NCBI RefSeq assembly: GCF_014211915.1
Contig: NZ_CP060039.1
Location: 496,001-560,000, forward strand
Reading direction: 5' to 3'
DNA length: 64,000 nucleotides
Source: Burkholderia cenocepacia
GTDB taxonomy: Bacteria; Pseudomonadota; Gammaproteobacteria; Burkholderiales; Burkholderiaceae
The position numbers and the translations under genes were made by a program. Shown one piece after another: positions 15,511-56,255 of this stretch. Each line of letters opens with the position of its first letter. Position 1 is the first letter of the stretch. Below the pieces are notes generated by a model. It did not search any database, was not told the origin of the DNA, and worked only from the letters and a program-made list of their open reading frames with translations.

Positions 15511-15577
15511 TGTCTCCTCCATGTCTCCTCCTGATATGGATTAAGCCCGTTCCGCTCTGCGTGAACGGGCTTTTTTT
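15511..15577 (+). ncRNA. Candidate trans-acting small RNA with duplicated CU-rich motif
   Basis: A unit of about 67 nt runs from the predicted start near 15511 to the U-run ending at 15577. It contains the 10-mer TGTCTCCTCC twice, at 15511-15520 and 15522-15531, predicted to be single-stranded. It ends in a strong intrinsic terminator: AAGCCCGTT (15543-15551), a 12-base loop, AACGGGCTT (15564-15572), then seven Ts. The CU-rich motifs are complementary to purine-rich Shine-Dalgarno sequences, so a role in translational repression is plausible. No protein is encoded. The identity is inferred from architecture only; I do not recognise it as a named RNA. Confidence 0.65.
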
Positions 15578-15665
15578 CGTCCGTCGATTGTGCCGCGTTC
15601 CGGCCGGCAGCGCAGGCGCGATGCGTCTACACTCGATGCTCGTCGACTGCGAAGGAGTCCCGCCC

Positions 15666-28181: not shown

Positions 28182-28190
28182 TGTGGATAA
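28182..28190 (-). promoter_or_regulatory. Single DnaA box upstream of dnaA
   Basis: A perfect TTATCCACA on the minus strand, about 200 bases before the dnaA start. It is the only good box I find in the 421-base rpmH-dnaA interval, so it looks like a dnaA autoregulatory site and not an origin. No other feature stands out there. Confidence 0.75.
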
Positions 28191-28392
28191 GTCCCGCTGT
28201 GGCCGCGTTTGGCGTTAGAATCTCGCCTTATCTCCAAGAATCCCGCACGCCGCCTCGGCTCGCGCCTGCCCCTCCAACACTGTGACGCAGGCGTCCGAGG
28301 CACGCTCGCACGACCGCTTCGGGCCTTGTTGCGCGACTGCGACAAGGGCGCCGGCGAGCCGCGCTGTGCACGCAAAAAACGACAGTTACTTG

Positions 28393-29969
28393 ATGAACGA
28401 TTTCTGGCAACACTGTTCCGCACTGCTGGAGCGCGAGCTGACGCCCCAGCAGTACGTGACGTGGATCAAACCCTTGGCCCCGGTGGCCTTCGATGCGTCG
28501 GCGAACACGCTGTCCATCGCCGCGCCGAACCGCTTCAAGCTGGACTGGGTCAAGAGCCAGTTTTCGGGCCGGATCTCCGATCTGGCCCGTGAATTCTGGA
28601 ACACGCCGATCGAAGTCCAGTTCGTCCTCGATCCGAAGGCCGGCATGCGCAGCGCCGCGGCAGGCACCGCGCCGGCCGCGCCACGTGCACCGCTGACCCC
28701 GAACGGCCCGGCCGCGACGGTCGCCGCGATCGCCGCCAACCTGACCGCGAATGCTTCCGCTGCGCCTGCCGCGCCGGCCGACGTGCCGATGACGCCGTCG
28801 GCGGCCGCCGCGCACCACCTGAACGCCGACGACGCCGACATCGACCTGCCGAGCCTGCCCGCGCACGAAGCCGCAGCCGGCCGCCGCACGTGGCGCCCGG
28901 GCCCCGGCGCCGCCCCGCGAACGGCGGCGAAGCCGATTCGATGTACGAACGTTCGAAGCTGAACCCCGTGCTCACGTTCGACAACTTCGTGACCGGTAAG
29001 GCCAACCAGCTCGCGCGCGCCGCCGCGATCCAGGTCGCGGACAACCCCGGCATCTCGTACAACCCGCTGTTCCTGTACGGCGGCGTCGGCCTCGGCAAGA
29101 CCCACCTGATCCACGCGATCGGCAACCAGCTGCTGCTCGACAAGGCCGGCGCGCGCATCCGCTACATCCACGCCGAGCAATACGTGTCGGACGTGGTGAA
29201 GGCGTACCAGCGCAAGGCGTTCGACGACTTCAAGCGCTACTACCATTCGCTCGACCTGCTGCTGATCGACGATATCCAGTTCTTCTCCGGCAAGTCGCGC
29301 ACGCAAGAGGAATTCTTCTACGCGTTCGAGGCGCTGGTCGCGAACAAGGCGCAGGTGATCATCACCAGCGACACGTATCCGAAGGAAATCTCGGGCATCG
29401 ACGATCGCCTGATCTCGCGCTTCGACTCGGGCCTCACCGTCGCGATCGAGCCGCCCGAACTGGAAATGCGCGTCGCGATCCTGATGCGCAAGGCGCAGTC
29501 GGAAGGCGTGAATTTGTCGGAAGACGTCGCGTTCTTCGTCGCGAAGCACCTGCGCTCGAACGTGCGTGAGCTCGAAGGCGCGCTGCGCAAGATCCTCGCG
29601 TATTCGAAGTTCCACGGCCGCGAGATCTCGATCGAGCTGACCAAGGAAGCGCTGAAGGACCTGCTGACCGTGCAGAACCGGCAGATTTCGGTCGAGAACA
29701 TCCAGAAGACCGTCGCCGACTTCTACAACATCAAGGTCGCCGACATGTACTCGAAGAAGCGCCCCGCGAACATCGCGCGGCCGCGGCAGATTGCGATGTA
29801 CCTGGCGAAGGAACTCACGCAGAAGAGCCTGCCGGAAATCGGCGAGCTGTTCGGCGGGCGCGATCACACCACCGTGCTGCACGCGGTGCGCAAGATCGCC
29901 GACGAGCGCAGCAAGGACGCGCAGCTCAACCACGAGCTGCACGTACTGGAACAGACGCTGAAGGGCTGA
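28393..29969 (+). CDS. dnaA: Chromosomal replication initiator DnaA, frame interrupted
   Basis: DnaA binds TTATCCACA boxes and melts the origin. Domain I starts [20 protein letters not shown] and reads in one frame to about 28930. From about 28915 the continuation ([20 protein letters not shown]) is in the next frame, so one base appears missing near 28910-28922 in a GC-rich run within the variable domain II linker. Everything after it is intact: Walker [10 protein letters not shown], Walker [10 protein letters not shown], and the box-recognising signature [15 protein letters not shown]. Restored length would be 525 residues, normal for the genus. Because dnaA is essential, a sequencing or assembly error is the likeliest cause. 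A single DnaA box lies upstream, and dnaN follows after 170 bases. Confidence 0.93.
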
Positions 29970-31290: not shown

Positions 31291-31328
31291 TGGCGTTTTT
31301 ATGGCGAACCGACAACCCGCCCTTTTAG

Positions 31329-33914
<2,586 letters not shown>

Positions 33915-33943
33915 AGGCGTTGCAGCCGTAGGGCGCCAGAGTA

Positions 33944-33996
33944 TGTGCGACTGGCGCCACAGTTGTGCGACTGGGTGACAGAGTTGGCGCGACTGG
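33944..33996. repeat. Three copies of a GCGACTGG-type short repeat after gyrB
   Basis: TGTGCGACTGG occurs at 33944-33954 and 33964-33974, with GCGCGACTGG at 33987-33996. Closely spaced copies like this resemble multi-repeat ends of IS21-type elements, but no transposase is present. It may mark the left edge of the island. Confidence 0.45.
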
Positions 33997-34013
33997 CCTA
34001 CGTCTCGAGATTG

Positions 34014-34035
34014 AGGCAAGCGCGTGAGCTTGCCT
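34014..34035 (+). terminator. Terminator downstream of gyrB
   Basis: AGGCAAGC (34014-34021), loop GCGTGA, GCTTGCCT (34028-34035), then TTCTTC. Confidence 0.65.
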
Positions 34036-34086
34036 TTCTTCATCTCGGTTGGCAGCCAAGACCTGTCTTGGCCTTGGCGATGCGCA

Positions 34087-35700
34087 TCATGGCAGCATAG
34101 GCAGTCCCAGCTCCTTGAGGAATGCGTTGTGGCGCTCGGTGGCCAGTTTGATTTGCTTATCCAACGAAACCAGTTCCGCATGCACTGCCGCGAGATCGAT
34201 CTGCTCCTCGGCTTCCGCCGTGCTCACGTAGCGCGAGATATTCAGATTGAAATCGTTCTTCTCGATTTCCTCCATGCCCACGCGCCGCGAATAGCGAACC
34301 TCCTCCTTTCGGAACCGGTAGGTGTCGATAATCTTGTCGATGTGCTCAGGTAGGATCTGGTTCTGCCGCTTCCCCTTCTCGAAATGCTCTGCCGCGTTGA
34401 TGAACAGCACGTCATCGGGCTTCTTGCATTTCTTGAGCACCAGGATGCACACAGGAATGCCGGTGGAAAAGAACAGGTTGGCGGGCAAGCCGATCACCGT
34501 ATCGATGTGGCCATCCTTGAGCAGCTTGGTGCGAATGCGTGCTTCGGCACCGCCACGGAACAGCACGCCGTGGGGCAGGATGATGGCCATTACCCCGTCT
34601 TGCTTCAGGAAATGGAAGCCGTGCAGCAGGAAAGCAAAGTCCGCAGCCGACTTGGGTGCCAAGCCGTAATTCTTGAACCGCACGTCCTCACTCAGTGCCT
34701 CAGTAGGCTCCCACCGGTAGCTGAAGGGGGGATTGGCTACCACCGCGTCGAACTTCGGCATCTTGGCCGGGTTGGTTTCACGCAGCATGTCCCACTCGTT
34801 GAGCAGGGTGTCGCCATGGAAAATCTCGAACTCAGAATCCTTCACCCCGTGCAGCAGCATGTTCATGCGCGCCAGGTTATAGGTGGTGATGTTCTTTTCC
34901 TGGCCGTAAATCTTCCCAATCGTGCCCTTTGCTTCCTTCATACGGTGGCGCACATTCAACAACAGGGAACCTGAACCGCAGGCCAGATCCATCACGCTGT
35001 CGAGATGGGAACGCTTACCCGTAGCAGGCTCCTGGCTATCGAGCGTCACGATGGCCGATAGGATGTCCGAAATGCGCTGCGGGGTGTAGAACTCGCCTGC
35101 CTTCTTGCCCGAGCCAGCCGCAAACTGACCAATCAGATACTCATAGGCATCACCCAACGTGTCGCTGTCGGTAGAGAACTGCTTCAGTCCGTCAGCAATT
35201 TCCTTGATGATCTTGCACAGGCGGGTATTGCGCTCGACATAGGTTTTACCAAGCTTGTCGGATGCAAGGTTGATCTCCGAGAATAGCCCCCGAAAGGTGC
35301 TGGCGAAGGATTCGTTCTCGATGTAACTGAAGCCGCTCTGCAAGGTTTTCAGGAGCGCCGCATCTTGCGTCCGTGCCATCTCGGCAATGTTGCCCCACAG
35401 GAACTGCGGCTCGATCACGTAGTGCACCTTGCGGCGCATTTGCTTCTCGAACTCAGGCACATCGTTTAGGTTGCCCTCGTACCAGAGTTGCAGAGGGGTG
35501 GATACCGAGCCGTCGATCTGCTGCGGATAGTCCGGCCCCAACTCTTTTTTTGCAGCAGCCTCGTAGTTGTCGGACAGGTAGCGCAGGAACAGGAATGCCA
35601 GCATGTAGTCGCGGAAATCGTCCGCGTTCATGGCGCCGCGCAGTTGGTCGGCAATGGCCCAGAGGGTCTTGCCCAGTTTTTGTTTTTCGAGATCAGTCAT
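34087..35700 (-). CDS. hsdM: Type I restriction-modification methyltransferase subunit
   Basis: A 537-residue N6-adenine methyltransferase subunit that with HsdS and HsdR forms the type I complex. The helical N-terminal domain (TDLEKQKLGKTLWAIADQLR) is followed by the SAM site DLACGSGSLLLNVRH (about 243) and catalytic motif IV VVANPPFSYRW (about 320). Its ATG overlaps the stop of the upstream PrrC-like gene by four bases (35697-35700), so it is the last gene of the hsdR-hsdS-prrC-hsdM operon. The IS66 insertion in hsdS lies upstream and may reduce its expression. Base composition is lower in GC than the core genome. Confidence 0.95.
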   Translation of the reverse strand: MTDLEKQKLGKTLWAIADQLRGAMNADDFRDYMLAFLFLRYLSDNYEAAAKKELGPDYPQQIDGSVSTPLQLWYEGNLNDVPEFEKQMRRKVHYVIEPQFLWGNIAEMARTQDAALLKTLQSGFSYIENESFASTFRGLFSEINLASDKLGKTYVERNTRLCKIIKEIADGLKQFSTDSDTLGDAYEYLIGQFAAGSGKKAGEFYTPQRISDILSAIVTLDSQEPATGKRSHLDSVMDLACGSGSLLLNVRHRMKEAKGTIGKIYGQEKNITTYNLARMNMLLHGVKDSEFEIFHGDTLLNEWDMLRETNPAKMPKFDAVVANPPFSYRWEPTEALSEDVRFKNYGLAPKSAADFAFLLHGFHFLKQDGVMAIILPHGVLFRGGAEARIRTKLLKDGHIDTVIGLPANLFFSTGIPVCILVLKKCKKPDDVLFINAAEHFEKGKRQNQILPEHIDKIIDTYRFRKEEVRYSRRVGMEEIEKNDFNLNISRYVSTAEAEEQIDLAAVHAELVSLDKQIKLATERHNAFLKELGLPMLP

Positions 35701-36797
35701 TGGGGGTCTGCTTCCTCAACGGCTTGAGGAAATAAATCGGGATTAAAGGGATAGCGATTTAGGAAGTCATGCAGGATCTTCCTAAAGTAAGCCTTGTTCT
35801 CGTCCAGCATCTGCTGAGGCTCGAACAGTGAATAGCTGCCGTGGCTCAGGATGTTGATCAGGCGTGCGTGCAAGATGCCATCTGGGTCATCGTCTTCCTG
35901 CTTGATGCAAGCTGAGAAGTTCCTGTGGCCGTGGAAGCTCGCTGTCTTCTCCAGAATGGTGCGCAGCATGTTGAAGTGATGGGTGAAAAGCCGGTCTTCC
36001 TGCGCAGCCTGATACAACTCAGCCAAGGCGGCGACATGGTGGAAGAACGGCGTGTCGCCTGCTTCCTCTCGCAACATGTACCCGCTACCGGTTGAGTTCT
36101 TATTGACGAAATACTTGCGGGCTTTGCCCAGCTCGTTGCACAACACATTGAAGAACAGCGTGTGGTGCGTCGAGATCACGGTCTTGAGCTTGCTTTCGGG
36201 TCGCTTGAGCAGTTGCGCTAAATGGTTAGCCACGGCAATGGCGTTGTGCTCATCCAACGACGAAATTGGGTCGTCAATGTAGATGTATTTCACCCACTGG
36301 TAAGCCTCGGCACCATCCAGCACCAACTGGACGATGGCAAGGAAGAAGCACCAGACAAAGATGTTTTCCTCGCCGCGCGACACTTTGATATTGTCGATGG
36401 GCGGCCCGTCCACCGTGCGCGAGAAGCGCACCACCCATTCCTGCGTATCGATGCGAAAATCAAAATCCGCATAGCGTTGCAGCAGCGGACGAATGCGGTT
36501 GTCCATCTCCAGCTCGGCTAGGCCGACAAAAAAGCGCGAGGCCGCGTTGAGCGTAAGGCGGCGGTCGCTGTCACCATCCAAATCGTTGTCCCAGTGGAAC
36601 AGGTCCTCGGTAAAGGCATTGAAGTAGAGCGTGTCGCGGGCATCACCCTGCTTGCCGATGTCTTTGAACGCCATCGATAGCCGCGTCTTGCCGGTACCGT
36701 TGTAGGCATAGAGCAGGATGGTTTTTTTGCTCTCCAATTCCTGGCGCAATTGCACGGCCAGCGCGGGCAGATCGGCGAAGGCTTGGCCCGGCTTCAT
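35697..36797 (-). CDS. prrC: PrrC-like anticodon nuclease (AAA ATPase) in type I R-M operon
   Basis: A 366-residue protein resembling PrrC, the tRNA-Lys anticodon nuclease held inactive by a type I R-M complex until a phage protein perturbs that complex. The ABC-like ATPase part has Walker A AYNGTGKTRLSMAFK (31-45), the diagnostic LYFNAFTEDLFHWDNDLDGD (57-76), signature SRGEEN (140-145) and Walker B YIYIDDPISSLDE (171-183). The C-terminal part has FNMLRTILEKTASF and INILSHGSYSLFE, placing Arg279, Glu283 and His319 like the Arg/Glu/His triad of PrrC. It is slightly shorter than the E. coli protein (about 396). Both ends overlap neighbours by four bases, matching the prr cassette. The substrate tRNA is not predictable from sequence. 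Confidence 0.8.
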   Translation of the reverse strand: MKPGQAFADLPALAVQLRQELESKKTILLYAYNGTGKTRLSMAFKDIGKQGDARDTLYFNAFTEDLFHWDNDLDGDSDRRLTLNAASRFFVGLAELEMDNRIRPLLQRYADFDFRIDTQEWVVRFSRTVDGPPIDNIKVSRGEENIFVWCFFLAIVQLVLDGAEAYQWVKYIYIDDPISSLDEHNAIAVANHLAQLLKRPESKLKTVISTHHTLFFNVLCNELGKARKYFVNKNSTGSGYMLREEAGDTPFFHHVAALAELYQAAQEDRLFTHHFNMLRTILEKTASFHGHRNFSACIKQEDDDPDGILHARLINILSHGSYSLFEPQQMLDENKAYFRKILHDFLNRYPFNPDLFPQAVEEADPQ

Positions 36798-37139
36798 TCC
36801 TGCACCTCACTCAGCGCCGGGAATAACCGCTGCATCAAGCCCTTCTTGTGGGCTTGAAGGCCATCGATCTTTTGACTTTGGACGGCAATTACATCATCAA
36901 GGGCTGACAAACAATCGGCAATTGCTTGTTGTTCCTCTCGTTCTGGAACCGACACCGTCAGACTCAAAATATCACCCCGTGAAAGCCCCGGGATGAGATT
37001 GCCAGAAGCCAACGCGATCAACCGTTGCCGCTGCGTCGCCAGAAAATGAAATACAAACTCACCATGTACACCGCGTGGCCTGACCGCCATCAACTGACGC
37101 CCCATAGCTACTTCATCAAGTTCTAGGTAAAGTAACTCA
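36794..37139 (-). pseudogene. hsdS: hsdS 3' fragment (type I specificity subunit), split by IS66
   Basis: The C-terminal part of a specificity subunit: LLYLELDEVAMGRQLMAVRP-like start of the second target-recognition domain's end, then QQAIADCLSALDDVIAVQSQ and the closing coiled conserved region HKKGLMQRLFPALSEVQE. The reading frame continues to 37168 only because it runs into the IS end. Removing the IS and one target copy joins it in frame to 39670-40612 (codon 315 spans the junction), giving a 426-residue HsdS. Its stop overlaps the PrrC-like ATG. Confidence 0.92.
37132..37139. repeat. Left copy of IS66 target-site duplication
   Basis: GTAACTCA directly adjoins the IS left end and is repeated at 39670-39677. 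Eight bases is the known duplication length of IS66-family elements. Confidence 0.95.
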
Positions 37140-37219
37140 GTAAGCGCGCAGAAATGGGCGTCTAGCACTCAGCGATCTGAGCGTGCAGGCTATGTCCACT
37201 GATTTTCAGTGGACACCTT

Positions 37220-37699
37220 ATGACAGAACAACATTCAGAAACGTCGGGCCTGAAGGTCGTCAGCGTTGGCATAGACGGTAAGCGTCGATTCGATCGGCAT
37301 ACCAAACGCCGACTCGTCGAGGCTTGCCTGGAGCCGGGAGCATCAGTCGCAGGACTCGCACTGCAGCACGGCGTTAATGCGAATCTCCTGCGCAAATGGA
37401 TCAAGCTGCATCAGCAACGGCTCTCTGAGGATTCGACGCAGTCGTCGACCGCAGAGTCGGCATTCGTGCCGGTCGTTATGGTTAGCAGTGAACAGGCGCT
37501 CGTCGAGCACAATTCCGTCAGGTCTTCATCGTTGGCCGCGACCGCTAGTTCGCCAGCAAATGCAGCGGCCGCGTCGACGCTGACGGCGCAGATGCCCAAC
37601 GGCATCACGCTTAAGCTCGAATGCGGCAAGAACGACGCAGCGCTTCTATCAGTGATGATCGAAACACTGGGACGGTGTGATGTTCCGGCTAAGCGATGA
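37220..37699 (+). CDS. tnpA: IS66 accessory protein TnpA
   Basis: A 159-residue HTH protein of the IS66 orfA class. The recognition region is GKRRFDRHTKRRLVEACLEP through GLALQHGVNANLLRKWIKLH. It ends in the usual weakly conserved tail and overlaps tnpB by about 20 bases, which suggests coupled translation. Confidence 0.92.
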   Translation: MTEQHSETSGLKVVSVGIDGKRRFDRHTKRRLVEACLEPGASVAGLALQHGVNANLLRKWIKLHQQRLSEDSTQSSTAESAFVPVVMVSSEQALVEHNSVRSSSLAATASSPANAAAASTLTAQMPNGITLKLECGKNDAALLSVMIETLGRCDVPAKR

Positions 37700-38030
37700 G
37701 CTGAAGGTCTATGTGCACCGGGACGCCGTTGACTTCCGTAAGAGCATCAACGGTCTTGCAGCCATAGTCGAGCAGTCGATGAAGCTCGATCCATTCGAGC
37801 AGGCCGTGTACGTATTCAGCAATCAGCGCCGCGATCGCATCAAGATGCTGCTGTGGGACCGTAACGGCTTCTGGCTGTTGATGAAGCGGCTCGAGCAGGA
37901 TCGTTTCGTTTGGCCGCGTAAGGAAGCGGTGCTCAAGCTCAGAACCGAGCAACTGCATTGGCTGCTCGACGGCATCGATATTGAAGCGATGCGGGCGCAC
38001 CCGACACGCTATTATCAGCGCGTGACGTGA
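37680..38030 (+). CDS. tnpB: IS66 accessory protein TnpB
   Basis: A 116-residue protein of the IS66 Orf2 class: MFRLSDELKVYVHRDAVDFR, KSINGLAAIVEQ, FSNQRRDRIKMLLWDRNGFW and the closing ARLEKDRF-like RLEQDRFVWPR. Needed for transposition in studied members. A GTG at 37677 is an alternative start. Confidence 0.94.
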   Translation: MFRLSDELKVYVHRDAVDFRKSINGLAAIVEQSMKLDPFEQAVYVFSNQRRDRIKMLLWDRNGFWLLMKRLEQDRFVWPRKEAVLKLRTEQLHWLLDGIDIEAMRAHPTRYYQRVT

Positions 38031-38063
38031 AACGCGAGCCAGCATCGCTGGTCTAATCCGGCG

Positions 38064-39620
38064 ATGCTGCCATCATCCTCATCTCCCACCGACGAACTGC
38101 AGGCGCTGCGCGCAGAACTCGCTGCCATGAAGAGCGAGTTGCGTGTGGTGACGGTCGAACGCGACTTGCTGCGCGAGAAGCTCAAGGCCTTTCAGCGGCA
38201 GTTGTTTGCCGCCAAGAGCGAAGTGCGCGGCGCCGAGCAACGCGACCTCTTCCTGAACGAAGCAGAGGCGGGCGCAACGGGATCTGAACCGGCGCAAGAG
38301 GCGCAAACGGAACAGAGCATCGAGGTTGGCGCACACGAGCGCAAGAAGCGTGGACGCAAACCGCTAGATCCGATGCTGCCTCGCGAGGTTGTGCGTCATG
38401 AATTGCCGGAATCAGAACGCGTTTGTGCACACGACGGGCATGCGCTCGTCGAGATCGGCGCCGAGATCAGTGAGCAGCTCGATATCGTGCCGCAGCAGGT
38501 TCGCGTCATTCAGCACCAACGAATCAAATACGCGTGTCCTTGCTGCGACCTCGGCATCAAGGTGACGCCGGCGCCGGCTCGCATCATTCCGAAGGGGTTA
38601 CTCACTGAATCGGCGCTTGCATGGGTAGTCGTGAGCAAGTTCGCTGACGCTCTGCCGCTGTATCGAATCGCCGCGTTGCTACACCGTTTCGGCGGCGATC
38701 TCTCGCGTGGCACGCTGGCAGCCAGCGTGGTGCGCGTCGGTACCGCAGTGCAGCCGCTCATCAACTTGATGCGCGATCACTTGCTTGAGGCCGACATCGT
38801 CTACGGCGATGAGACAACGGTGCAGGTGCTGAAAGAGCCAGGCCGTGCCGCACAACGCAAGAGCTACATGTGGGCACAGATGAGCGGCACCGGCCCACCG
38901 GTTCGATTGTTCAGTTACAGCTCGACGCGCAGCGCGGCACAAGCCGCGGCGCTCTATGCTGGCATCAAGCCCGGCGCGGTGTTGATGACGGACGGCTATG
39001 AGCCGTACAACGATGTCGCCGACACTAACCAACTGGTGCATCTTGGCTGTTGGGCGCACGCACGTCGCTACATGATCGAGGCCGAGGAGAATCTCCCAAA
39101 GGCGCAACGTGGTCGCGACCATCCCGTCAGCGAATTCATTCGACTGATCGGGCAATTGTTTGCGATCGAATCGCGCTGCGAAGGGCTGACGCCAGAGAAA
39201 CGGTTGCTGACGAGGCAACGCGACAGTCGTGCGATCCTTGGGCAAATCGAGGAACTGCTTCTGCGTCAGTTGCATGCAGTGTTGCCGCAAAGCGCCTTTG
39301 GCAAAGCGCTTCACTACATGCAGGGTCAATGGCCGAAGCTCATTCGCTATGTCGAGAACGGCGCTTGGCCGCTCTCGAACAACGCCTGCGAGAACGCGAT
39401 CCGGCCATTCACCGTCGGGCGAAAAAACTGGCTCTTCTACGACACTGTCGCTGGAGCGAATGCTGCTGCCAACCTGTATTCGCTAATCGAAACGTGCAAG
39501 GCGAACGGCGTCGAACCGTACGGCTATCTCGTCGCGCTGTTCAAGGCACTGCCTCTCGCAAACACCGGCGACGACTACGAGGCGCTATTGCCTTGGCGCC
39601 TCATCCCCTCCGCAGACTGA
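38064..39620 (+). CDS. tnpC: IS66 transposase TnpC
   Basis: A 518-residue DDE transposase. An N-terminal leucine-rich coiled coil (LQALRAELAAMKSELRVVTV) and a Zn-ribbon-like region (CACPCCDLGIKV-type YACPCCDLGIKVTPAP near 153) precede the catalytic core: VYGDETTVQVL (first Asp), LMTDGYEPYND (second Asp) and the glutamate in ENGAWPLSNNACENAIRPFT. The C-terminal IS66 domain NLYSLIETCKANGVEPYGYL is complete. No frameshift is seen, so the element may still be active. Confidence 0.96.
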   Translation: MLPSSSSPTDELQALRAELAAMKSELRVVTVERDLLREKLKAFQRQLFAAKSEVRGAEQRDLFLNEAEAGATGSEPAQEAQTEQSIEVGAHERKKRGRKPLDPMLPREVVRHELPESERVCAHDGHALVEIGAEISEQLDIVPQQVRVIQHQRIKYACPCCDLGIKVTPAPARIIPKGLLTESALAWVVVSKFADALPLYRIAALLHRFGGDLSRGTLAASVVRVGTAVQPLINLMRDHLLEADIVYGDETTVQVLKEPGRAAQRKSYMWAQMSGTGPPVRLFSYSSTRSAAQAAALYAGIKPGAVLMTDGYEPYNDVADTNQLVHLGCWAHARRYMIEAEENLPKAQRGRDHPVSEFIRLIGQLFAIESRCEGLTPEKRLLTRQRDSRAILGQIEELLLRQLHAVLPQSAFGKALHYMQGQWPKLIRYVENGAWPLSNNACENAIRPFTVGRKNWLFYDTVAGANAAANLYSLIETCKANGVEPYGYLVALFKALPLANTGDDYEALLPWRLIPSAD

Positions 39621-39669
39621 CGCACAGCCGGTCGCTGAGAGCAAGCCACGTGGCTTATTGCGCGCTTAC

Positions 39670-39677
39670 GTAACTCA
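39670..39677. repeat. Right copy of IS66 target-site duplication
   Basis: GTAACTCA, identical to 37132-37139. Confidence 0.95.
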
Positions 39678-40612
39678 CCCACGCCACTCCCCTTGACAGT
39701 TATGAGGATATCTCCCGCACGCCCTGAATTTGCGCTGTGCGAGGTCCATTTTCCAACTAAAGCCAAATCATTTGCGTAATCTGACGGCCCTGTGAAGTAT
39801 GGAACATCACCAGCATCCGCATACTCGTCTGGTGCGAGATGAAGCCCTGAAATGAGGTCGATCCGCGTCGAAAGTTCGACTTCCTTCCACGCCTCGGCGT
39901 CCCGAAACTCAGGAAAGCGCAGACGTGGAACCGTTTCGCCTTCGCAGGGGAACAGCTGCTGCAGCAAGCCATTCTTGTGGATCTTGAGCGCGTCAAGTTT
40001 CCGGCTCTCGGCCGTAATCACATCGTCGAGGGAAGACAGAAATTCGGCGATTTTTTTTTGCTCGTCGCTCTTGGGAATCGAGATTGCAAATTCCCTCAAA
40101 GCGCTGCCGGAAAGCTCCTTGAATGTATTGCCTGCACCGATATCTTCTAGGCGTGATCTGTTATTTCCAAGATAGTAGTAAATGAACTTGGATTCATAGC
40201 CGGCCCCCGCGACAATGCCACGGCAACCTTGGTTGATTGCCATTGGTTGGGTGTTTATTGCCAAATGCCCGATGGGGGCACGCGTAGAGAGGATAATGCT
40301 TCCTTCAGGCAATAGTTCCGACGAGCAATTTTGGAGGCCGTTCTGCGTCAGAGTGCGGATCGTTCTGGAAACGTATGGGCTTACGTCCTTTCCCATTTCC
40401 GCTGGTGTAATCCATTGAATTTCACCGTTCCAGTATTCCGGAACACTGGTGCTCGGAGTTCCTCCTTGAGTAATACGTGCAATCTTCGACAGCGGTTCAG
40501 TCGCCCACTCCCCCGCCCCCCTAAACTCAGGAAACCGGAGTCGCGGCACCAGCGCGGTTTTCTCGTTGTTCTGTTCGCACATTGCGGCGACGTCCTTATT
40601 GTTCATATGCAC
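39670..40612 (-). pseudogene. hsdS: hsdS 5' fragment (type I specificity subunit), split by IS66
   Basis: The N-terminal 314 codons. The first target-recognition domain includes ARITQGGTPSTSVPEYWNGE and SSELLPEGSIILSTRAPIGH. The central conserved spacer is DEQKKIAEFLSSLDDVITAE, and the second recognition domain starts at VPRLRFPEFRDAEAWKEVEL and is cut after VKGSGVGEL. The start at 40612 overlaps hsdR by 17 bases. The truncated frame would run on into the IS and end around 39575, giving a non-functional half subunit. Some truncated HsdS halves can dimerise, but this one carries an incomplete second domain. Confidence 0.93.
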
Positions 40613-43565
40613 TCAGCCCCGAAATCTCGCGCCCCTGGGCGAGCTTGTGCAGCAGTGGCGTCATGTCTTCCACCAATGCCAGTTCTTTTTGCGTGCGCGC
40701 TTTCCAGCCCAAACCAAGCGGAGCCATCAACTCGCTCAGCGCTTCGCCATCGAAGACGCGGCGGCGCAATACGTCATCCACGAAGGCTTGTAGCGCCTCG
40801 GCGGCCAACCCATGCTTGGTGGCGATATCGGTCAGTTCGCGGGTCTTCTTCTCGGCCTTGAAGCGCTCGTAACCTGCGCGGATTTGCTTTTCGTCCAACG
40901 CCTCACCCACAGGCAGGCCACGGATGTATTCGGCGATGTCCTCGCGCTCCTCGATGAACTTAGCGTCTGACTGAATCAGACCGATGAGTTGCTCACGGTT
41001 GAGAGTAAGCTTGCCGGGCTTTTGCTGCGTCATGCGGGCAATCAGCCCCATGATGTAGTCGTAGTCGATCACCGCCGAGGCAAAAAGCACGAACTCGAAG
41101 TCAAGCTGTTGTATTTCGGGCGGAGCCTGGTCGCCTTGCTTGTCCTGCTGTTCCTTGAGCCGCTTGGCCGTCTCCAAATACACGCCTTTGAAACCTTGCA
41201 GCTGGTCGGGCGATGCGATCTGCGTGATCTGCGTTTTCTGCTCCTCGCTCAGATCGGTGTATTGATCTAGCTGGGTCTTAAGACGTTGCACTTCTTTGAA
41301 CAGGTTGACGAACTGGCTACGCGCAGCGTCTCCCTTGAGGTTGGCCACCTCTTCGGGAGCGTTAGCCAGCCCCTGTGTTTGCATGAAGTCGGCCAGCTTT
41401 TGGGTGGCGGTTTGCAGGCTATCGATGACCTTGGGTGCTGGGTCCACCAGCCAGATTTCGCGCGGGTTGTCGATCTTCTCGCCTGAGAAGAGTGTGATGG
41501 CTTCTTCCACAGGCTTCTGCTGTTGGCGGAAGTCGAGGATGTTGCCGTAGGGCTTGCTGTCGTTCAACACGCGATTGGTGCGCGAAAAAGCCTGGATCAA
41601 GCCGTGATGCTTAAGGTTTTTGTCCACGTACAGGGTGTTCAGGTACTTGGAGTCGAAACCAGTGAGCAGCATGTCAACGACGATAGTGATATCGATCTTC
41701 TCGGCGTGGGGAAGATCGGCATTGGGGTATTGCTGATCTTTGATGCGCTTTTGCACGTCCTGGTAATACAGATCGAACTCGCCGATCCGGTGGCTGGTAC
41801 CAAAGCGAGCGTTGTAGTCGGCAATGATGCGAGTGAGCGCGGCCTTCTTGCCCTCCGGGTCCTGCTGGTTGTCTTCCTTTTCCTGCGGCAGGTCTTCCTG
41901 AATCTGCTGCACATCCTTGTTGCCTTCGGCAGGCGGAGAGAACACGCAAGCTACGTTCAGGGGCTGAAAGGTTTCATCTTCGCCCTGCTTTTTGGCTTGG
42001 AGGGCTTTGAGCGCCTCGAAATACTCGATAGCGTCGTTGATGCTGGCAGTGGCCAGCACGGCGTTGAATTTCCGCTCGTTGGTGGCGGCATCATGCTTGG
42101 CGAGGATGGTCTCGATGACCTTGGCCTTGGCCAAGCCTTCGCCAGGCTTGGGCGGGTTCTTGCCCTCGGGCTTGAAGTAGTCCACGTGGAAGCGCAAAAC
42201 GTTGCGGTCTTCGATGGCGTGGGTAATGGTGTACTGGTGCAGGCAGCGTTGGAATAGGTCGTCCGTGGTGCGATAGCTGGCCTGTTGCCCCTCGATCTGT
42301 TGGTAGCTGGCGTTCTGCTCGAAGATCGGCGTGCCAGTAAAACCAAACAATTGGGCGTTGGGGAAGAACTCCTTGATAGCCTTGTGGTTCTCGCCGAATT
42401 GCGAACGGTGGCATTCGTCAAATATGAAAACCATGCGCTGGTTGCGCAGAGGTTCCAGGCGTTCCTTGTAGTTGCGCTTGTTGGTGCCGTCGAGCGCCAA
42501 GCCCAGCTTCTGGATGGTGGTGACGATCACCTTGTCGGCATAGTCGTCGGACAGCAGGCGACGCACCAGCGCTTCGGTGTTAGTGTTCTCTTCGACACAG
42601 CCTTCCTGGAAGCGATTGAATTCCTCGCGGGTCTGGCGATCCAGGTCTTTGCGGTCCACCACGAACAGGCATTTTTCGATGTCCGGGTTGTCCTTGAGCA
42701 ACGTGGAGGCCTTGAACGACGTGAGCGTCTTGCCGCTGCCAGTGGTGTGCCAGATGTAGCCGTTACCGCAGTTTTGGTGGATACAATCAACGATGGCTTT
42801 GACGGCATATATTTGGTACGGCCGCATCATCAGCAGCTTCTGCTCGCTGGCCACCAGCACCATGTATCGGCTGACCATCTGACCCAAGGTGCACTTGGCG
42901 AGGAACTTCTCAGCGAAGCTATCCAGTTGCGTGATCTTCCTGTTGTCTTCGCTCGCAAACTGGTAGACGGGCAGGAAGCGTTCGTCAGCGTTGAAGCTGA
43001 AGTGACGCGCGTTATTGTTGGCGAAGTACCAAGTGTCGGCGCGATTGCTGACGATAAAGAGCTGGATAAAACAGAGCAATGTCTTGCCGTAACCGTTGCC
43101 GGGATCGCTCTTGTAATCGACAATCTGCTGCATAGCCCGACGTGGGCTAACAGCCAGTGTCTTCAATTCGATCTGCACTACCGGCACACCGTTGATCAGC
43201 AACATCACGTCGTAGCGGTGATGGCTGTTGTCGGTGTTGATGCGCAACTGGTTGACTACCTCGAAGTCGTTCTTGCACCAGTCGCGGATGTTGACGAGCG
43301 CGAAGTTGAGCGGCGTGCCGTCGTCGCGCTCGAAGCTGTTGATGTTCCGCAGCGTCTGGGCAGCGTTGTAGACATCGGACGTGATCACGCTGTCCAGAAG
43401 GCGCTGGAACTCGCTATCGGTCAGGTGTACCCGGTTGAGAGCCTCGAACTTTTCGCGGAAGTTCGCTTCCAGTGCGGCGCGGTCCCTAATTTCTGGCCGA
43501 TAAGTGTATTTTAGGTCGCGGAGCTTGGAGATAAGATCTTGCTCTACCCGATTTTCGGCTGTCAT
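40596..43565 (-). CDS. hsdR: Type I restriction endonuclease subunit R
   Basis: A 989-residue translocase-nuclease. The N-terminal nuclease domain shows YDVMLLINGVPVVQIELKT (D..ExK type). The SF2 motor has motif I WHTTGSGKTLTSF, motif II IFDECHRSQFGE, motif III FTGTPIFEQNA and motif VI QAFSRTNRVL. The C-terminal helical domain ends ISGLSAYEQ. I chose the ATG at 43565 (MTAENRVEQDLISKLRDLKY); the longer reading to 43880 is in relic sequence. The ribosome site is weak. It is the first gene of the operon and overlaps hsdS. Without a working HsdS it should be inactive as a sequence-specific nuclease. Confidence 0.94.
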   Translation of the reverse strand: MTAENRVEQDLISKLRDLKYTYRPEIRDRAALEANFREKFEALNRVHLTDSEFQRLLDSVITSDVYNAAQTLRNINSFERDDGTPLNFALVNIRDWCKNDFEVVNQLRINTDNSHHRYDVMLLINGVPVVQIELKTLAVSPRRAMQQIVDYKSDPGNGYGKTLLCFIQLFIVSNRADTWYFANNNARHFSFNADERFLPVYQFASEDNRKITQLDSFAEKFLAKCTLGQMVSRYMVLVASEQKLLMMRPYQIYAVKAIVDCIHQNCGNGYIWHTTGSGKTLTSFKASTLLKDNPDIEKCLFVVDRKDLDRQTREEFNRFQEGCVEENTNTEALVRRLLSDDYADKVIVTTIQKLGLALDGTNKRNYKERLEPLRNQRMVFIFDECHRSQFGENHKAIKEFFPNAQLFGFTGTPIFEQNASYQQIEGQQASYRTTDDLFQRCLHQYTITHAIEDRNVLRFHVDYFKPEGKNPPKPGEGLAKAKVIETILAKHDAATNERKFNAVLATASINDAIEYFEALKALQAKKQGEDETFQPLNVACVFSPPAEGNKDVQQIQEDLPQEKEDNQQDPEGKKAALTRIIADYNARFGTSHRIGEFDLYYQDVQKRIKDQQYPNADLPHAEKIDITIVVDMLLTGFDSKYLNTLYVDKNLKHHGLIQAFSRTNRVLNDSKPYGNILDFRQQQKPVEEAITLFSGEKIDNPREIWLVDPAPKVIDSLQTATQKLADFMQTQGLANAPEEVANLKGDAARSQFVNLFKEVQRLKTQLDQYTDLSEEQKTQITQIASPDQLQGFKGVYLETAKRLKEQQDKQGDQAPPEIQQLDFEFVLFASAVIDYDYIMGLIARMTQQKPGKLTLNREQLIGLIQSDAKFIEEREDIAEYIRGLPVGEALDEKQIRAGYERFKAEKKTRELTDIATKHGLAAEALQAFVDDVLRRRVFDGEALSELMAPLGLGWKARTQKELALVEDMTPLLHKLAQGREISGLSAYEQ

Positions 43566-43719
43566 TTTGATTACGGTACTGTAGGCAGGGGCAGGCTGTA
43601 TATTGCCATGCTCCCCGCTATGCCAACAGGCTTCTGGATATGAATCGCTCGATCCGCCATGACCGCGCTTGAATTCTCGGCTAGCCTCAAGGCTTTGACA
43701 GCGATCGGCCATCCACCCC

Positions 43720-43800
43720 ACCGAATCAACACGCGATAAAGCGCAGCCGCAAAGTACGCAAGGAACATCGCAAAGGAACATCGCAAAGGAAAGCTGTCTC
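43720..43800 (-). pseudogene. Relic of a cytochrome b561-like gene
   Basis: Minus-strand translation gives MFLAYFAAALYRVLIRWGG, matching the C-terminal TFLVHFAAALYHGLIRRDG of the intact b561 gene at 50842-51375 with similar DNA. Next to it a 13-bp unit GGAACATCGCAAA is tandemly duplicated (43762-43774, 43775-43787), which breaks the frame. It fills the gap between hsdR and the HNH gene. Confidence 0.5.
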
Positions 43801-43834
43801 TCGACTGCGACGCCGTTCACTATTGCGATCTGGC

Positions 43835-44485
43835 TCAAGACTCGGCGCCGAAATGAAGCTCTCTGTGACAATTTGGGCACAACGCGATCGCATTTTCGAC
43901 CGTATCCTCACCGTCGTCTGCAAGGCGTTGCTTGTGGTGCACCTCGAGGTATGGTGTGCGATCCTTTTTCCGGAGAAACGGAGCACGCAATTTGCAACGC
44001 TCACAAGCGCCATTCGCTCGAAGCAAAACTTCCGCAACAACGTCAGCGCTTCGAACGTAGATCTCCGTGACGGCCTTGATCTTTGCGGGCTTTTTGTTGG
44101 CCCGTGAGAGTCGCTTCCGGCGTGCCGTCGATGTGTCTGCAAGCGCTCGATCCACGTCTTCGTCGAAAGCTGCTCGGCGTGCCTGAAGAGTCTGGAAAAC
44201 CGCGACCGGCCCCTCATGTTGTGCGAGTTCGAACGTACCGCGCTCTACCCGTATGAACTTCGCCTCGCGTTTCGACGGATCGAAATCGACGCACTGAGGA
44301 CAATGGTCCTCCACCTTGCGACGCACTGTCGCCTGAAACGTCGCCATGTCTTGATAGTTGTCTGGCAACTCCCCTGACGAGAATTCGACCAGCAGCGCTT
44401 CATAGATCTTCTTGTACGGCGCTCTTCCACCCAGTTTTCGCACCACATTCTCAATGTCGCCAACTTTCACGCTGTACTGCGGCAT
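43835..44485 (-). CDS. HNH endonuclease
   Basis: A 216-residue protein. The N-terminal 80 residues (GDIENVVRKLGGRAPYKKIY, ATFQATVRRKVEDHCPQC) resemble a winged-helix DNA-binding module. The C-terminal HNH domain has the zinc pair CERC, the catalytic YLEVHHKQRLADDGEDTVEN and the second pair ALCPNCHRELHFG. It begins four bases after the MazG-like gene, so the two form an operon upstream of the type I cluster. It may act in phage defence; no cognate methylase is adjacent. Confidence 0.85.
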   Translation of the reverse strand: MPQYSVKVGDIENVVRKLGGRAPYKKIYEALLVEFSSGELPDNYQDMATFQATVRRKVEDHCPQCVDFDPSKREAKFIRVERGTFELAQHEGPVAVFQTLQARRAAFDEDVDRALADTSTARRKRLSRANKKPAKIKAVTEIYVRSADVVAEVLLRANGACERCKLRAPFLRKKDRTPYLEVHHKQRLADDGEDTVENAIALCPNCHRELHFGAES

Positions 44486-52615: not shown

Positions 52616-53137
52616 ATGCCCTCCACCGCCCTCGACGACGAAGCATTGCGCGAACTCATCCCCAGGCTGCGACGCTTCGCGCTCTGGCTGGCGCGCGACG
52701 TCCATGCAGCCGACGATCTCGTCCAGTCGACGCTCGAGCGCGCGCTGTCGCGCTGGACGAGCCGTCGCGACGACGCGTCGCTGCGCAGCTGGCTCTTCAC
52801 GATCCTGTACCGGCAATTTCTCGATGGCAAACGCAGCGCGAAGCGCTACGCGTGGCTGCTCGGCCGCATCGGCGACGACGACGAAGCGCACTGGCCGTCC
52901 GCCGAACGCGAATTCGCGGCGCGCGCGACGCTTGAAGCGTTCGGGCGGCTCTCGGACGAACAGCGCAGCCTGCTGCTGCTCGTCGCGGTCGAGGGCTTCA
53001 CCTATCAGGAAGCGGCCGACCTGCTCGAGGTGCCGATCGGCACCGTGATGTCGCGGCTCTCCCGCGCGCGCCAGGCCCTGCGCCAGCTCAGCGACGGCGA
53101 ACTTCCCGCTCCTTCTCTCCGATTGATGAAGAAATGA
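52616..53137 (+). CDS. ECF RNA polymerase sigma factor
   Basis: A 173-residue two-domain ECF sigma. Sigma2: PRLRRFALWLARDVHAADDL with VQSTLERALSRW. Sigma4: DEQRSLLLLVAVEGFTYQEA and DLLEVPIGTVMSRLSRARQA, the promoter -35-reading HTH. The ATG at 52616 precedes the sigma2 domain by a normal distance. Its stop overlaps the anti-sigma ATG (53134-53137). The matching promoters on both sides predict that it controls itself and the divergent catalase operon. Confidence 0.94.
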   Translation: MPSTALDDEALRELIPRLRRFALWLARDVHAADDLVQSTLERALSRWTSRRDDASLRSWLFTILYRQFLDGKRSAKRYAWLLGRIGDDDEAHWPSAEREFAARATLEAFGRLSDEQRSLLLLVAVEGFTYQEAADLLEVPIGTVMSRLSRARQALRQLSDGELPAPSLRLMKK

Positions 53138-53892
53138 ACACGCCTCCGAACGAACATGACCTTCAGGCCTATGTCGACGGCCAGCTCGACGACGATGCGC
53201 GCGCCGCGGTCGAGCGCTATCTCGCGCTGCATCCTGAACGCGCGGAACAGGTGAAGCAATGGCAGCAGGACGCGCAGCGGTTGCGGGCCGCGCTGGAGAG
53301 CGTGCGGATGCCGGCGGACAACCCCGCGCTGGATCCGGCGGCGATTCGTGGCCGACGGGCCGAGCGCGCGCGGATGCGGTTCGCGATGGCGGCTTCGTTC
53401 GTGTTCTGCGTCGGGCTCGGGACGTTCGGCGGATGGCAGGCGCGCGGGTGGAACGCGGCGCCGCCGATCGCGCCGATGAGCGATGCGGTCAAGGCTTACC
53501 AGATGATGGTGGTCGATCGGACGGCCAAGGTCGATTACCGGCCGACCGGTGCGGGCGATTTGCAAGGGTGGCTCACCAAAGGCGTGGGCGCATCGGCGAA
53601 GCTGCCGGATTTGAGCGCGGCGGGGTTCAGGCCGGTTGGTGGGCGGCTGTTCACGACGGACAGCGGGGCGACTGCTGCAATGGTGCTCTATGAGGATGAT
53701 GCGGGACGGACGCTGAGCTTCTATCTCCGGCCGGCGGAATCGGGACATCGGCTGCTGCCGAACGGGCAACGCGTGGATGGCGCGCTGCTCGCGCGGTATG
53801 GCTCGGTGAATGGGCTCAACTATGCGGTGGTCGGGCCGGCGGGGAGTCTTGGCGAGAAAGCAGTCGTGCAGGCGCTCGATCAGCAGACTTGA
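53134..53892 (+). CDS. Membrane anti-sigma factor
   Basis: A 252-residue protein. The cytoplasmic N-terminus (NEHDLQAYVDGQLDDDARAA, then VERYLALHPERAEQVKQWQQ) is an anti-sigma domain lacking the HxxxCxxC zinc motif. One membrane helix lies near residues 83-103 (FAMAASFVFCVGLGTFGGWQ), followed by a periplasmic sensor-like domain. It would hold the co-encoded sigma factor inactive until a periplasmic signal, possibly oxidative, arrives. Codons in the second half shift toward G- and T-ending forms, as in gyrB. Confidence 0.88.
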   Translation: MNTPPNEHDLQAYVDGQLDDDARAAVERYLALHPERAEQVKQWQQDAQRLRAALESVRMPADNPALDPAAIRGRRAERARMRFAMAASFVFCVGLGTFGGWQARGWNAAPPIAPMSDAVKAYQMMVVDRTAKVDYRPTGAGDLQGWLTKGVGASAKLPDLSAAGFRPVGGRLFTTDSGATAAMVLYEDDAGRTLSFYLRPAESGHRLLPNGQRVDGALLARYGSVNGLNYAVVGPAGSLGEKAVVQALDQQT

Positions 53893-53994
53893 AGTGGTCG
53901 GAGGCGTGCCCGGCCGGCGGTTGGTCGTGGCCGTCAGCGCCTTTTGCGGAGCGGCTGGGCGGACTTGAGCGGGCGCATGCTCACCGCTCGAATG

Positions 53995-54360
53995 CACAGC
54001 GTTTCGACTGACTTTCCTCCGCTGTTATTCACATCGACACCTCGCCGGCGCCCTCACCTTTAAAATCACAGGGTTTCGAGTCGCCGCGGAACCGGATATC
54101 CACATCTCTCCTCTGGTACCGCAGGTCGCCTTCGGTCGGTTCGCTCACCTTTGGCGCGCACAGTGTTTCGGGTTGTTTTGGGCGTCGATATCCACAAGGC
54201 ATTCGACTTTCTGACGTCGCACGCGATTTGTTCGCTGCCCTCTTTCATTGTCGGCAAAGCCTTGTCGGGCAAGACATTCAGGCCAACGAGTCCGTCAACC
54301 CGGGATGCTCACCGATCGGATGCACAGGGTTTCAACTGGATCGTGCGCCGGTTATCCACA
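53995..54360. other. Four composite repeats each with a DnaA box (origin candidate, part 1)
   Basis: The motif CACAGnGTTTC occurs at 53995, 54067, 54159 and 54323. Each is followed, 28-30 bases after its first base, by a DnaA-box-like sequence: TTATTCACA (54025-54033), ATATCCACA (54096-54104), ATATCCACA (54187-54195) and TTATCCACA (54352-54360). Units 1 and 4 share longer similarity (ATGCTCACCG.TCG.ATGCACAG). The region has no gene. It reads as a DnaA-binding iteron array next to the second cluster at 55753-56011. Confidence 0.65.
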
Positions 54361-54394
54361 CACCGCCGCTCGCGCTTCGGTTACTTCGTCCCGA

Positions 54395-54697
54395 CTATCC
54401 CGAGAATCTCGCGGTTTCCGGCGCAACGACGTAGTGGATCGACTTCCCGAGCCGATTTGCGTTGCCCAGCCCGCGCATGCCCGGAATCAGCATCGCCACG
54501 AACGTGATGGTGATGACATCGTCGTCTGGCCTGAGGTCCACCGTGGACGCCCTTTTGTCTGTGATGCAGATCTCGAAGTTGCGCAGATCCTGCCCGGTCG
54601 CTGCAAAGTCTTCGTCGGCAGCATTCAGGCCCAGCAGCGTCGCGGTGTGGAGCGTGACCGAACACCGGTCGATCGTGCCGAAATTCAATGTGCTCAT
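54395..54697 (-). CDS. Hypothetical protein, 100 aa
   Basis: A soluble protein of no family I recognise: MSTLNFGTIDRCSVTLHTAT with a beta-rich middle (NFEICITDKRASTVDLRPDD, DVITITFVAMLIPG). GGAGA precedes the ATG. It is the last of four small leftward genes between two DnaA-box clusters. Composition is a little below the host GC. Confidence 0.55.
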   Translation of the reverse strand: MSTLNFGTIDRCSVTLHTATLLGLNAADEDFAATGQDLRNFEICITDKRASTVDLRPDDDVITITFVAMLIPGMRGLGNANRLGKSIHYVVAPETARFSG

Positions 54698-55752: not shown

Positions 55753-56011
55753 TTATCCAAAGGTGTTAACAGGGTTCGTATATATACGTAGTGATAGTTA
55801 ACAAGCGCTGTGCCCCACAGTGGATAACCTCCGTAACGCACTGAATTTTCAACGCGAAGCGAAATGCATAACCCTGGGTGCGCGACGTGAACAGCGTCCG
55901 GCAGCACAGAACAACTTTTCGTCGATTCACAGCCGCGCCGACATATCCTCAATCGTTCCACTGTGAATCCAGAGGCTTCCTGGGCAGTTATCCAGAGGGC
56001 AATGTGGATAA
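55753..56011. other. DnaA-box cluster with AT-rich palindrome (origin candidate, part 2)
   Basis: Within 260 gene-free bases: TTATCCAAA (55753-55761, plus), TTATCCACT (55819-55827, minus), TTATCCAGA (55988-55996, plus) and a perfect TTATCCACA (56003-56011, minus). Between the first two lie two GTTAAC sites (near 55765 and 55797) and the palindrome CGTATATATACG, an easily melted tract. This is the composition expected of an origin with an unwinding element. It ends about 125 bases before the tRNA-Val promoter. Confidence 0.65.
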
Positions 56012-56178: not shown

Positions 56179-56255
56179 AGGCTCGTAGCTCAGTTGGTTA
56201 GAGCACCACCTTGACATGGTGGGGGTCGTTGGTTCGAATCCAATCGAGCCTACCA
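56179..56255 (+). tRNA. tRNA-Val (anticodon GAC)
   Basis: The 7-bp acceptor stem AGGCTCG/CGAGCCT, anticodon stem-loop CCACCTTGACATGGTGG with anticodon GAC, T-loop GGTTCGAATCC and an encoded CCA (56253-56255) give a complete 77-nt cloverleaf. It stands alone with its own promoter and a terminator at 56320-56352. No integrase gene lies next to it. Confidence 0.98.

Follow-up and report, generated by a model that had tools for sequence, protein, structure and literature searches.

Vibrionaceae possess a described site linking the replication of two chromosomes: crtS, a single site contained within 153 bp, is reported to bind the initiator RctB and to trigger replication of chromosome 2 (PMC5991422), and adenine-methylation sites as well as a putative DnaA site are described within it (PMC6090056). 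In the words of Du et al. (2016), a Vibrio-like mechanism linking chromosomes 1 and 2 (c1 and c2) 'is worth exploring', and a 2026 survey sets the task of finding 'timers' other than crtS and the control by methylation known in A. tumefaciens. The published c2 iteron of Burkholderia is ctCCCGAAAAacCTCACCTtt; the same report describes clusters of the 7-mer CTGTGCA in three B. cenocepacia origins, with a function given there as unknown (PMC4948915). The other strand of this 7-mer contains CACAG, a word reported to be methylated on one strand, at the adenine in its fourth base, with loss of the mark upon deletion of BCAL3494 (PMC7364216).

The element described here is formed by two arrays, A and B, of a composite repeat unit, located on C1 of a Burkholderia genome of 7.6 Mb, assembled as four contigs. 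Array A lies within the window, i.e. the whole 64,000 bp stretch analysed (C1:496001-560000). Similarly to crtS, the arrays are found on chromosome 1, away from the origin, at a conserved place; they combine a word whose methylation is known from published work, CACAG, with the DnaA-like block G[AT]T[AG]TCCACA, and they are a candidate target of the chromosome-2 initiator, sharing the half-site CTCACC alone with the c2 iterons and with a candidate operator. They differ from crtS in being made of 9-25 units per array-bearing genome at two loci, in the initiator, which in Burkholderia is a Rep_3 RepA (WH1 and WH2 domains) and not RctB, and in the mark, which is CACAG on one strand instead of GATC. 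On the best reading, the arrays would work like Vibrio crtS without being homologous to it, and we class the element outside crtS, as a variant among the systems controlling replication between chromosomes. The original prediction that no element of such composition had been described agrees with a search of the open-licence literature, where none was found. The features used below are as follows.

53973..54364, + strand: array A, gene-free, four units, between an ORF at 53134-53892 (+) and an ORF at 54395-54697 (-)
53973..54037, + strand: unit 1, with CTCACC at 53980-53985, CACAG at 53995-53999, GTTTCGACT, and last block GTTATTCACA at 54024-54033
54046..54108, + strand: unit 2, with CTCACC at 54053-54058, CACAG at 54067-54071, GTTTCGAGT, and last block GATATCCACA at 54095-54104
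54137..54200, + strand: unit 3, with CTCACC at 54144-54149, CACAG at 54159-54163, GTTTCGGGT, and last block GATATCCACA at 54187-54196
54301..54364, + strand: unit 4, with CTCACC at 54308-54313, CACAG at 54323-54327, GTTTCAACT, and last block GTTATCCACA at 54351-54360
28182..28190, - strand: canonical DnaA box TTATCCACA, just upstream of dnaA, in the presumed oriC1; distances are given relative to it
C1:287.5-289.0 kb (L117 7530-9030), outside the window: array B, with 13 units scoring E < 0.001

The motif CACAGnGTTTC, predicted to occur four times in a gene-free stretch, has exactly four copies in the window, all on the + strand (53995, 54067, 54159 and 54323), versus 0.07 expected; at least four copies were found in none of 100 shuffled sequences. 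The stretch is free of genes; the ORF to its right, on the opposite strand, has its stop at 54395, and array A is crossed only by overlapping ORFs in other frames. Each copy is followed by a box, in order TTATTCACA, ATATCCACA, ATATCCACA and TTATCCACA, which starts 30, 29, 29 and 29 bases after the start of the motif, as had been claimed. The prediction had missed CTCACC, equally conserved and located 15 bases before CACAG (14 in unit 2), the GAGT following GTTTC, and the larger array B. The unit is described by the formula CTCACC-N9-CACAG-nGTTTCGAGT-N12/13-G[AT]T[AG]TCCACA, with a period of about 90 bp. The step from unit 3 to unit 4 is 164 bp, nearly two periods, and a fifth exact unit is found at that spot in one relative (G041). 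Array A is not an ordinary tandem repeat: TRF finds none there, because the units share blocks and not their whole sequence.

Relatives found by pattern were used to build a profile, which gave 502 matches and 411 distinct unit sequences, 410 after dropping two Winogradskya contigs (L059 and L063), each of which had a single weak match. Near-invariance in the 411 distinct units is seen for CTCACC, for CACAG, for G[AT]T[AG]TCCACA and for the T of GAGT; in the first three it arises partly through selection, since the seeds were required to contain CACAGnGTTTC, CTCAC and TATCCACA. The stretches from the search for relatives include lone matches in other bacteria (24 of 71), and some of the named contigs duplicate strains of the genome set. 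In 345 of 362 units the starts of CTCACC and CACAG are 15 bp apart; those of CACAG and the last block are 28 bp (111 units) or 29 bp (224 units) apart. The dinucleotide preceding CACAG is most commonly TG (173 units). Neighboring units are most often spaced by 85-95 bp, or by about twice as much. All units share a single orientation in 71 of 77 loci, a figure which takes in loci with one unit, and inverted blocks occur in the other 6. Between blocks the units diverge, while the blocks themselves stay.

The exact pair is not scattered over the 7.6 Mb genome, where five copies were counted, four in array A and one at C1:287639, and it is present in 46 of 65 Burkholderia genomes, the reversed-pattern control giving no match in any of the 65; the predicted confinement and conservation are thus both borne out. 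With a second profile, the own genome has a total of 18 scoring places. By profile search, 9-25 units were found in 52 of the 65 Burkholderia genomes and none in the remaining 13; 53 of 398 genomes of the family match, 50 of them Burkholderia and the other 3 from one further genus. For the genus and family counts stricter profile filters were used, and the counts are those among the matches listed. The last three (G167, G238 and G287, genus g20) have a single weak match each, with E between 1e-4 and 6e-4, either a remnant or a chance match.

A DnaA domain is encoded at 28959-29441, and together with the canonical box at 28182 it places the presumed oriC1 within the window. The box is followed by G and is therefore also a CACAG site. 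The dnaA gene is seemingly split over overlapping frames (28282-29969; ORFs 28282-28962 and 28890-29969), perhaps by an assembly error, and its open frame is shorter than in several relatives.

In the own genome array A lies about 25 kb from dnaA and array B 236 kb from it, on the opposite side. Array B is located 216-301 kb upstream of dnaA in all 21 genomes in which both were placed, and array A, among the matches listed, 17-61 kb downstream of it in 15 of 16 genomes, the exception being G058, where it lies 635 kb away in the opposite orientation. Nine of these distances were computed and the rest obtained by hand. Among the matches listed, all those in the 21 array-bearing genomes with dnaA placed are on the dnaA contig. 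Two CTCACC-CACAG matches about 299 kb from dnaA in G009 may represent a moved array A. In the array-less genome G017 the left flanking genes are present at both loci, and neither array is there.

The blocks of the unit share words with the chromosome 2 origin (ori2). Exact CCCGAAAANNCTCACCT occurs in 13 copies in the own genome, all on C2 and all containing CTCACC; most adjoin the Rep_3 initiator gene, and a few form a separate cluster some 140 kb off. A second c2 iteron cluster is likewise reported for J2315 (PMC4948915). The own one (L150 3535-3804, G000 C2:2103535-2103804) holds degenerate iterons, mostly 23 bp apart, with 3.9 CTCACC and 1.1 CACAG per kb, i.e. no CACAG enrichment. An inverted repeat, CTCACC-N6-GGTGA, is found 69 bp before the repA start in the own genome; of 22 ori2 regions examined, 18 contain it (15 of 15 from array-bearing and 3 of 7 from array-less genomes). 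Rep_3 initiators typically have inverted half-iterons as their operators, and CTCACC alone is therefore a plausible RepA target; judged by its sequence, it is the core both of the c2 iterons and of the candidate RepA operator. PF10134, also considered for the c2 initiator, proved to be the wrong family.

CTCACC and CACAG reach 8.9 copies each per kb in array A and 9.0 each in array B, 11.3 and 14.0 at ori2, and 0.55 and 1.29 over the remainder of the window, corresponding to an enrichment over the latter of 16-fold and 7-fold in the two arrays and of 21-fold and 11-fold at ori2. The composite CTCACC-N7-10-CACAG has 20 copies in the own genome, 17 in the arrays, two in the ori2 iteron cluster and one elsewhere, versus two for the reversed control, and 2-3 copies in each of four array-less genomes, versus 0-4 for their controls. 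Of the genomes examined, all 15 array-bearing ones have it at ori2 and none of the 7 array-less ones does, and the CACAG count in the densest kb at ori2 is 6-19 in the former and 0-7 in the latter. These 22 regions come from the genomes with an ori2 place listed (15 of the 52 array-bearing and 7 of the 13 array-less), and the contrast probably reflects one or a few evolutionary splits and not 22 independent cases, since array presence may itself go back to one split. An iteron-like site followed by CACAG was also noticed on C3 (L153 3854-3890, G000 C3:593854-593890); GCTCACCGATCGGAT is common to it and to unit 4 of the window.

The units nevertheless differ from the c2 iterons. Only the right half, CTCACC, is identical, with CACAG close by at ori2 in array-bearing genomes, whereas the left half CCCGAAAA is missing from the units in iteron orientation, where only an inverted likeness, TTTCGAG, is seen; GAGT and the last block have no counterpart in the iterons. 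The CTGTGCA 7-mers (PMC4948915), taken together with CACAG methylation (PMC7364216), offer a further likeness, TGCACAG in the unit being the same word on the other strand; the 7-mers are single words scattered in origins, while in the units the word is fixed within a composite at two chromosome-1 loci.

The reading to which we assign a probability of about 0.5 is that arrays A and B are methylation-marked sites which bind the c2 initiator RepA and couple the replication cycles of c1 and c2. As part of this whole, the units are taken to be protein-binding sites and neither genes nor RNAs. The arrays combine a RepA half-site, a methylation mark and a DnaA-like box, and are thus candidates for a device tying the copying of c2 to c1.

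The pairing had originally been attributed to DnaA bound together with a second protein. A composite, origin-proximal protein-binding element is supported, but the identity of the DnaA box is doubtful and the partner is more likely RepA. Among 335 last blocks only 45 read TTATCCACA and 229 begin with A; the block is mostly ATATCCACA, which is a poor DnaA box, and most units depart from the DnaA-box consensus TTATNCACA, which is fitted by two of the four boxes of array A. Sites of the datA, DARS or DnaA-box-cluster kind, at which DnaA would be titrated or recharged to control oriC1 while the other blocks bind an accessory protein, are nonetheless similar in having DnaA-like boxes clustered off oriC on the main chromosome. 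The end of the last block, TCCACA, resembles a DnaA box; T[AG]TCCACA is otherwise rare, [AT]T[AG]TCCACA having four copies outside the units in 371 kb of own-genome stretches; the bases ahead of CACAG, often AAT-n, suggest a half-kept box; and array A is near dnaA. We consider a DnaA titration or reactivation site unlikely all the same: beyond the departures from the consensus, the last block is one among four conserved blocks, the conserved G ahead of it is no DnaA trait, CTCACC and GAGT, conserved as much as the box, would be left unexplained, and the change observed at ori2 between the clades would be unexpected.

The CACAG of the unit is best read as a methylation site. The base after the last block, counted in the 335 units fitting G[AT]T[AG]TCCACA, is T in 147, C in 95, A in 93 and G in none, whereas CCACA is followed by G in 142 of 410 cases in the 371 kb of own-genome stretches, units included. 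The last block thus never forms a CACAG site, and each unit contains one methylatable site and one kept from becoming so. Neither the missing G nor the GAGT block was among the seed requirements. Of all the signs that methylation is of importance for the element we consider the missing G the strongest, despite the normal growth in exponential phase reported for the CACAG-methylase mutant of J2315 (PMC7364216).

A protein of 672 aa with an N6_N4_Mtase domain is encoded about 12 kb from array A and 2 kb past the end of the window (L325 2092-4110, G000 C1:562092-564110), and is a candidate for the CACAG methylase, the homologue of BCAL3494; motif scans of other own-genome stretches gave no convincing methylase candidate. 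A methylase confined to array-bearing genomes was sought, but a protein of about 700 aa with this domain is present in all 12 genomes searched, 7 array-less ones included, and the idea of a co-distribution failed.

CACAG is dense at oriC1, at ori2, at the c3 place and in the arrays, and this would also suit an array serving an unrelated nucleoid, segregation or methylation-sensing protein (SeqA-like or KfrA-like), which would organise the origin region and act at ori2 through CACAG. A KfrA-type protein is encoded beside ori2, and nucleoids larger relative to the cell are reported in methylase mutants (PMC7364216). Since such a protein leaves the identity of the first block with the RepA half-site unexplained, we regard it as improbable.

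An array of small RNAs, a family of mobile repeats or some other neutral repeat, as might be suggested by the tandem period near 90 bp with some steps about double and by the inverted blocks in 6 of 77 loci, is very improbable, given that RNAalifold finds no consensus pairs over 60 units, that four array loci have no Rfam match, that no plasmid or phage match was obtained, that the units diverge between blocks which themselves stay, and that the loci hold their places across species. The RNA results also led to the rejection of a structured RNA gene or a REP-like repeat, and a mobile element or phage was discarded on the same matches and conserved places, two lone pattern matches being present among viral contigs. 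A coding repeat was rejected as well, the spacings of adjacent units being spread over all three values modulo 3 (99, 75 and 72 cases).

If the arrays do couple the two cycles through RepA, the c2 initiator would bind A and B on c1 via CTCACC, perhaps helped by the TTTCGAG block, which lies about two turns on, and the last block would be read by DnaA or by RepA. Every unit would hold one obligatory site of CACAG adenine methylation, its last block being kept from becoming another. Since the mark on CACAG is confined to a single strand, a c1 fork passing through a unit would give one methylated and one unmethylated sister, a difference lasting until re-methylation. This change, or the mere doubling of the sites, would alter the RepA available to ori2, so that the start of c2 would be tied to an early part of c1 replication, by analogy with crtS and RctB in Vibrio. 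The sequences show the anatomy, conservation and position of the arrays, their words in common with ori2 and the co-distribution; RepA binding, gating by methylation and the direction of the effect are what we infer here. Trigger and titration both fit. A more specific version, in which array-bearing Burkholderia evolved, independently of Vibrio, an array-based c1 sensor made of a RepA half-site, a one-strand mark removed by the fork and an unmethylatable DnaA-like box, so that a brief methylation difference licenses or times ori2, is tentative and on balance somewhat doubtful.

Replication of c2 is reported to start after that of c1 (PMC13342612; PMC5991422), and for J2315 the C periods are given as 58 and 51 min, with a rate of about 33 kb/min (PMC4948915). 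Synchronous ending would require c2 to start 7 min after c1, when the forks are about 231 kb from oriC1, versus 236 kb for array B in the own genome, an agreement noticed post hoc. A placement of array B tuned to the difference in chromosome length was rejected, its distance showing no correlation with the c1/c2 arm-length difference in 9 genomes (Spearman -0.27).

Other results weigh against the coupling role. The c2 iterons are kept in all 65 Burkholderia genomes, array-less ones included. The DNA-binding region of RepA is near-identical in 13 aligned proteins, 7 of them from array-less genomes; a domain gained by the array-bearing clade was looked for and none was seen, the 13 proteins aligning over their whole length. 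The array-less clade thus keeps c2, its iterons and a near-identical RepA, and the arrays would be an added control, not a universal requirement. The full iteron is absent from the units, which have only its right half in iteron orientation, and the 13 exact copies of CCCGAAAANNCTCACC are all on C2, none in the arrays. In J2315 the c2 foci are reported to double occasionally before those of c1 (PMC4948915), and the B. cepacia Hi-C report describes ori2 contacts with a large part of Chr1, not with a stated focal site (PMC13342612).

For the coordination of chromosomes in Burkholderia, the arrays offer two defined and removable c1 loci, together with a candidate protein and a methyl mark that are both identified by name; the 13 of 65 genomes devoid of arrays provide a natural contrast. 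If the reading is true, a chromosome-1 site joining initiator, methylation and DnaA-like elements evolved twice.

Some minor features of the window were also recorded. A low-GC island beside dnaA (31299-43880) contains type I restriction-modification genes and further ORFs, as follows.

31299-34181: ORF of 960 aa, no Pfam match
34087-35700: HsdM
35697-36797: AAA_13 protein
38064-39620: IS66 transposase
39575-40612: HsdS
40596-43880: HsdR

Rfam family RF02278 (Betaproteobacteria toxic small RNA) is matched at 15511-15578. About 1.5 kb to the right of array A, a second small cluster of DnaA-box-like sequences is located at 55753-56011, upstream of a tRNA gene (56179-56252).
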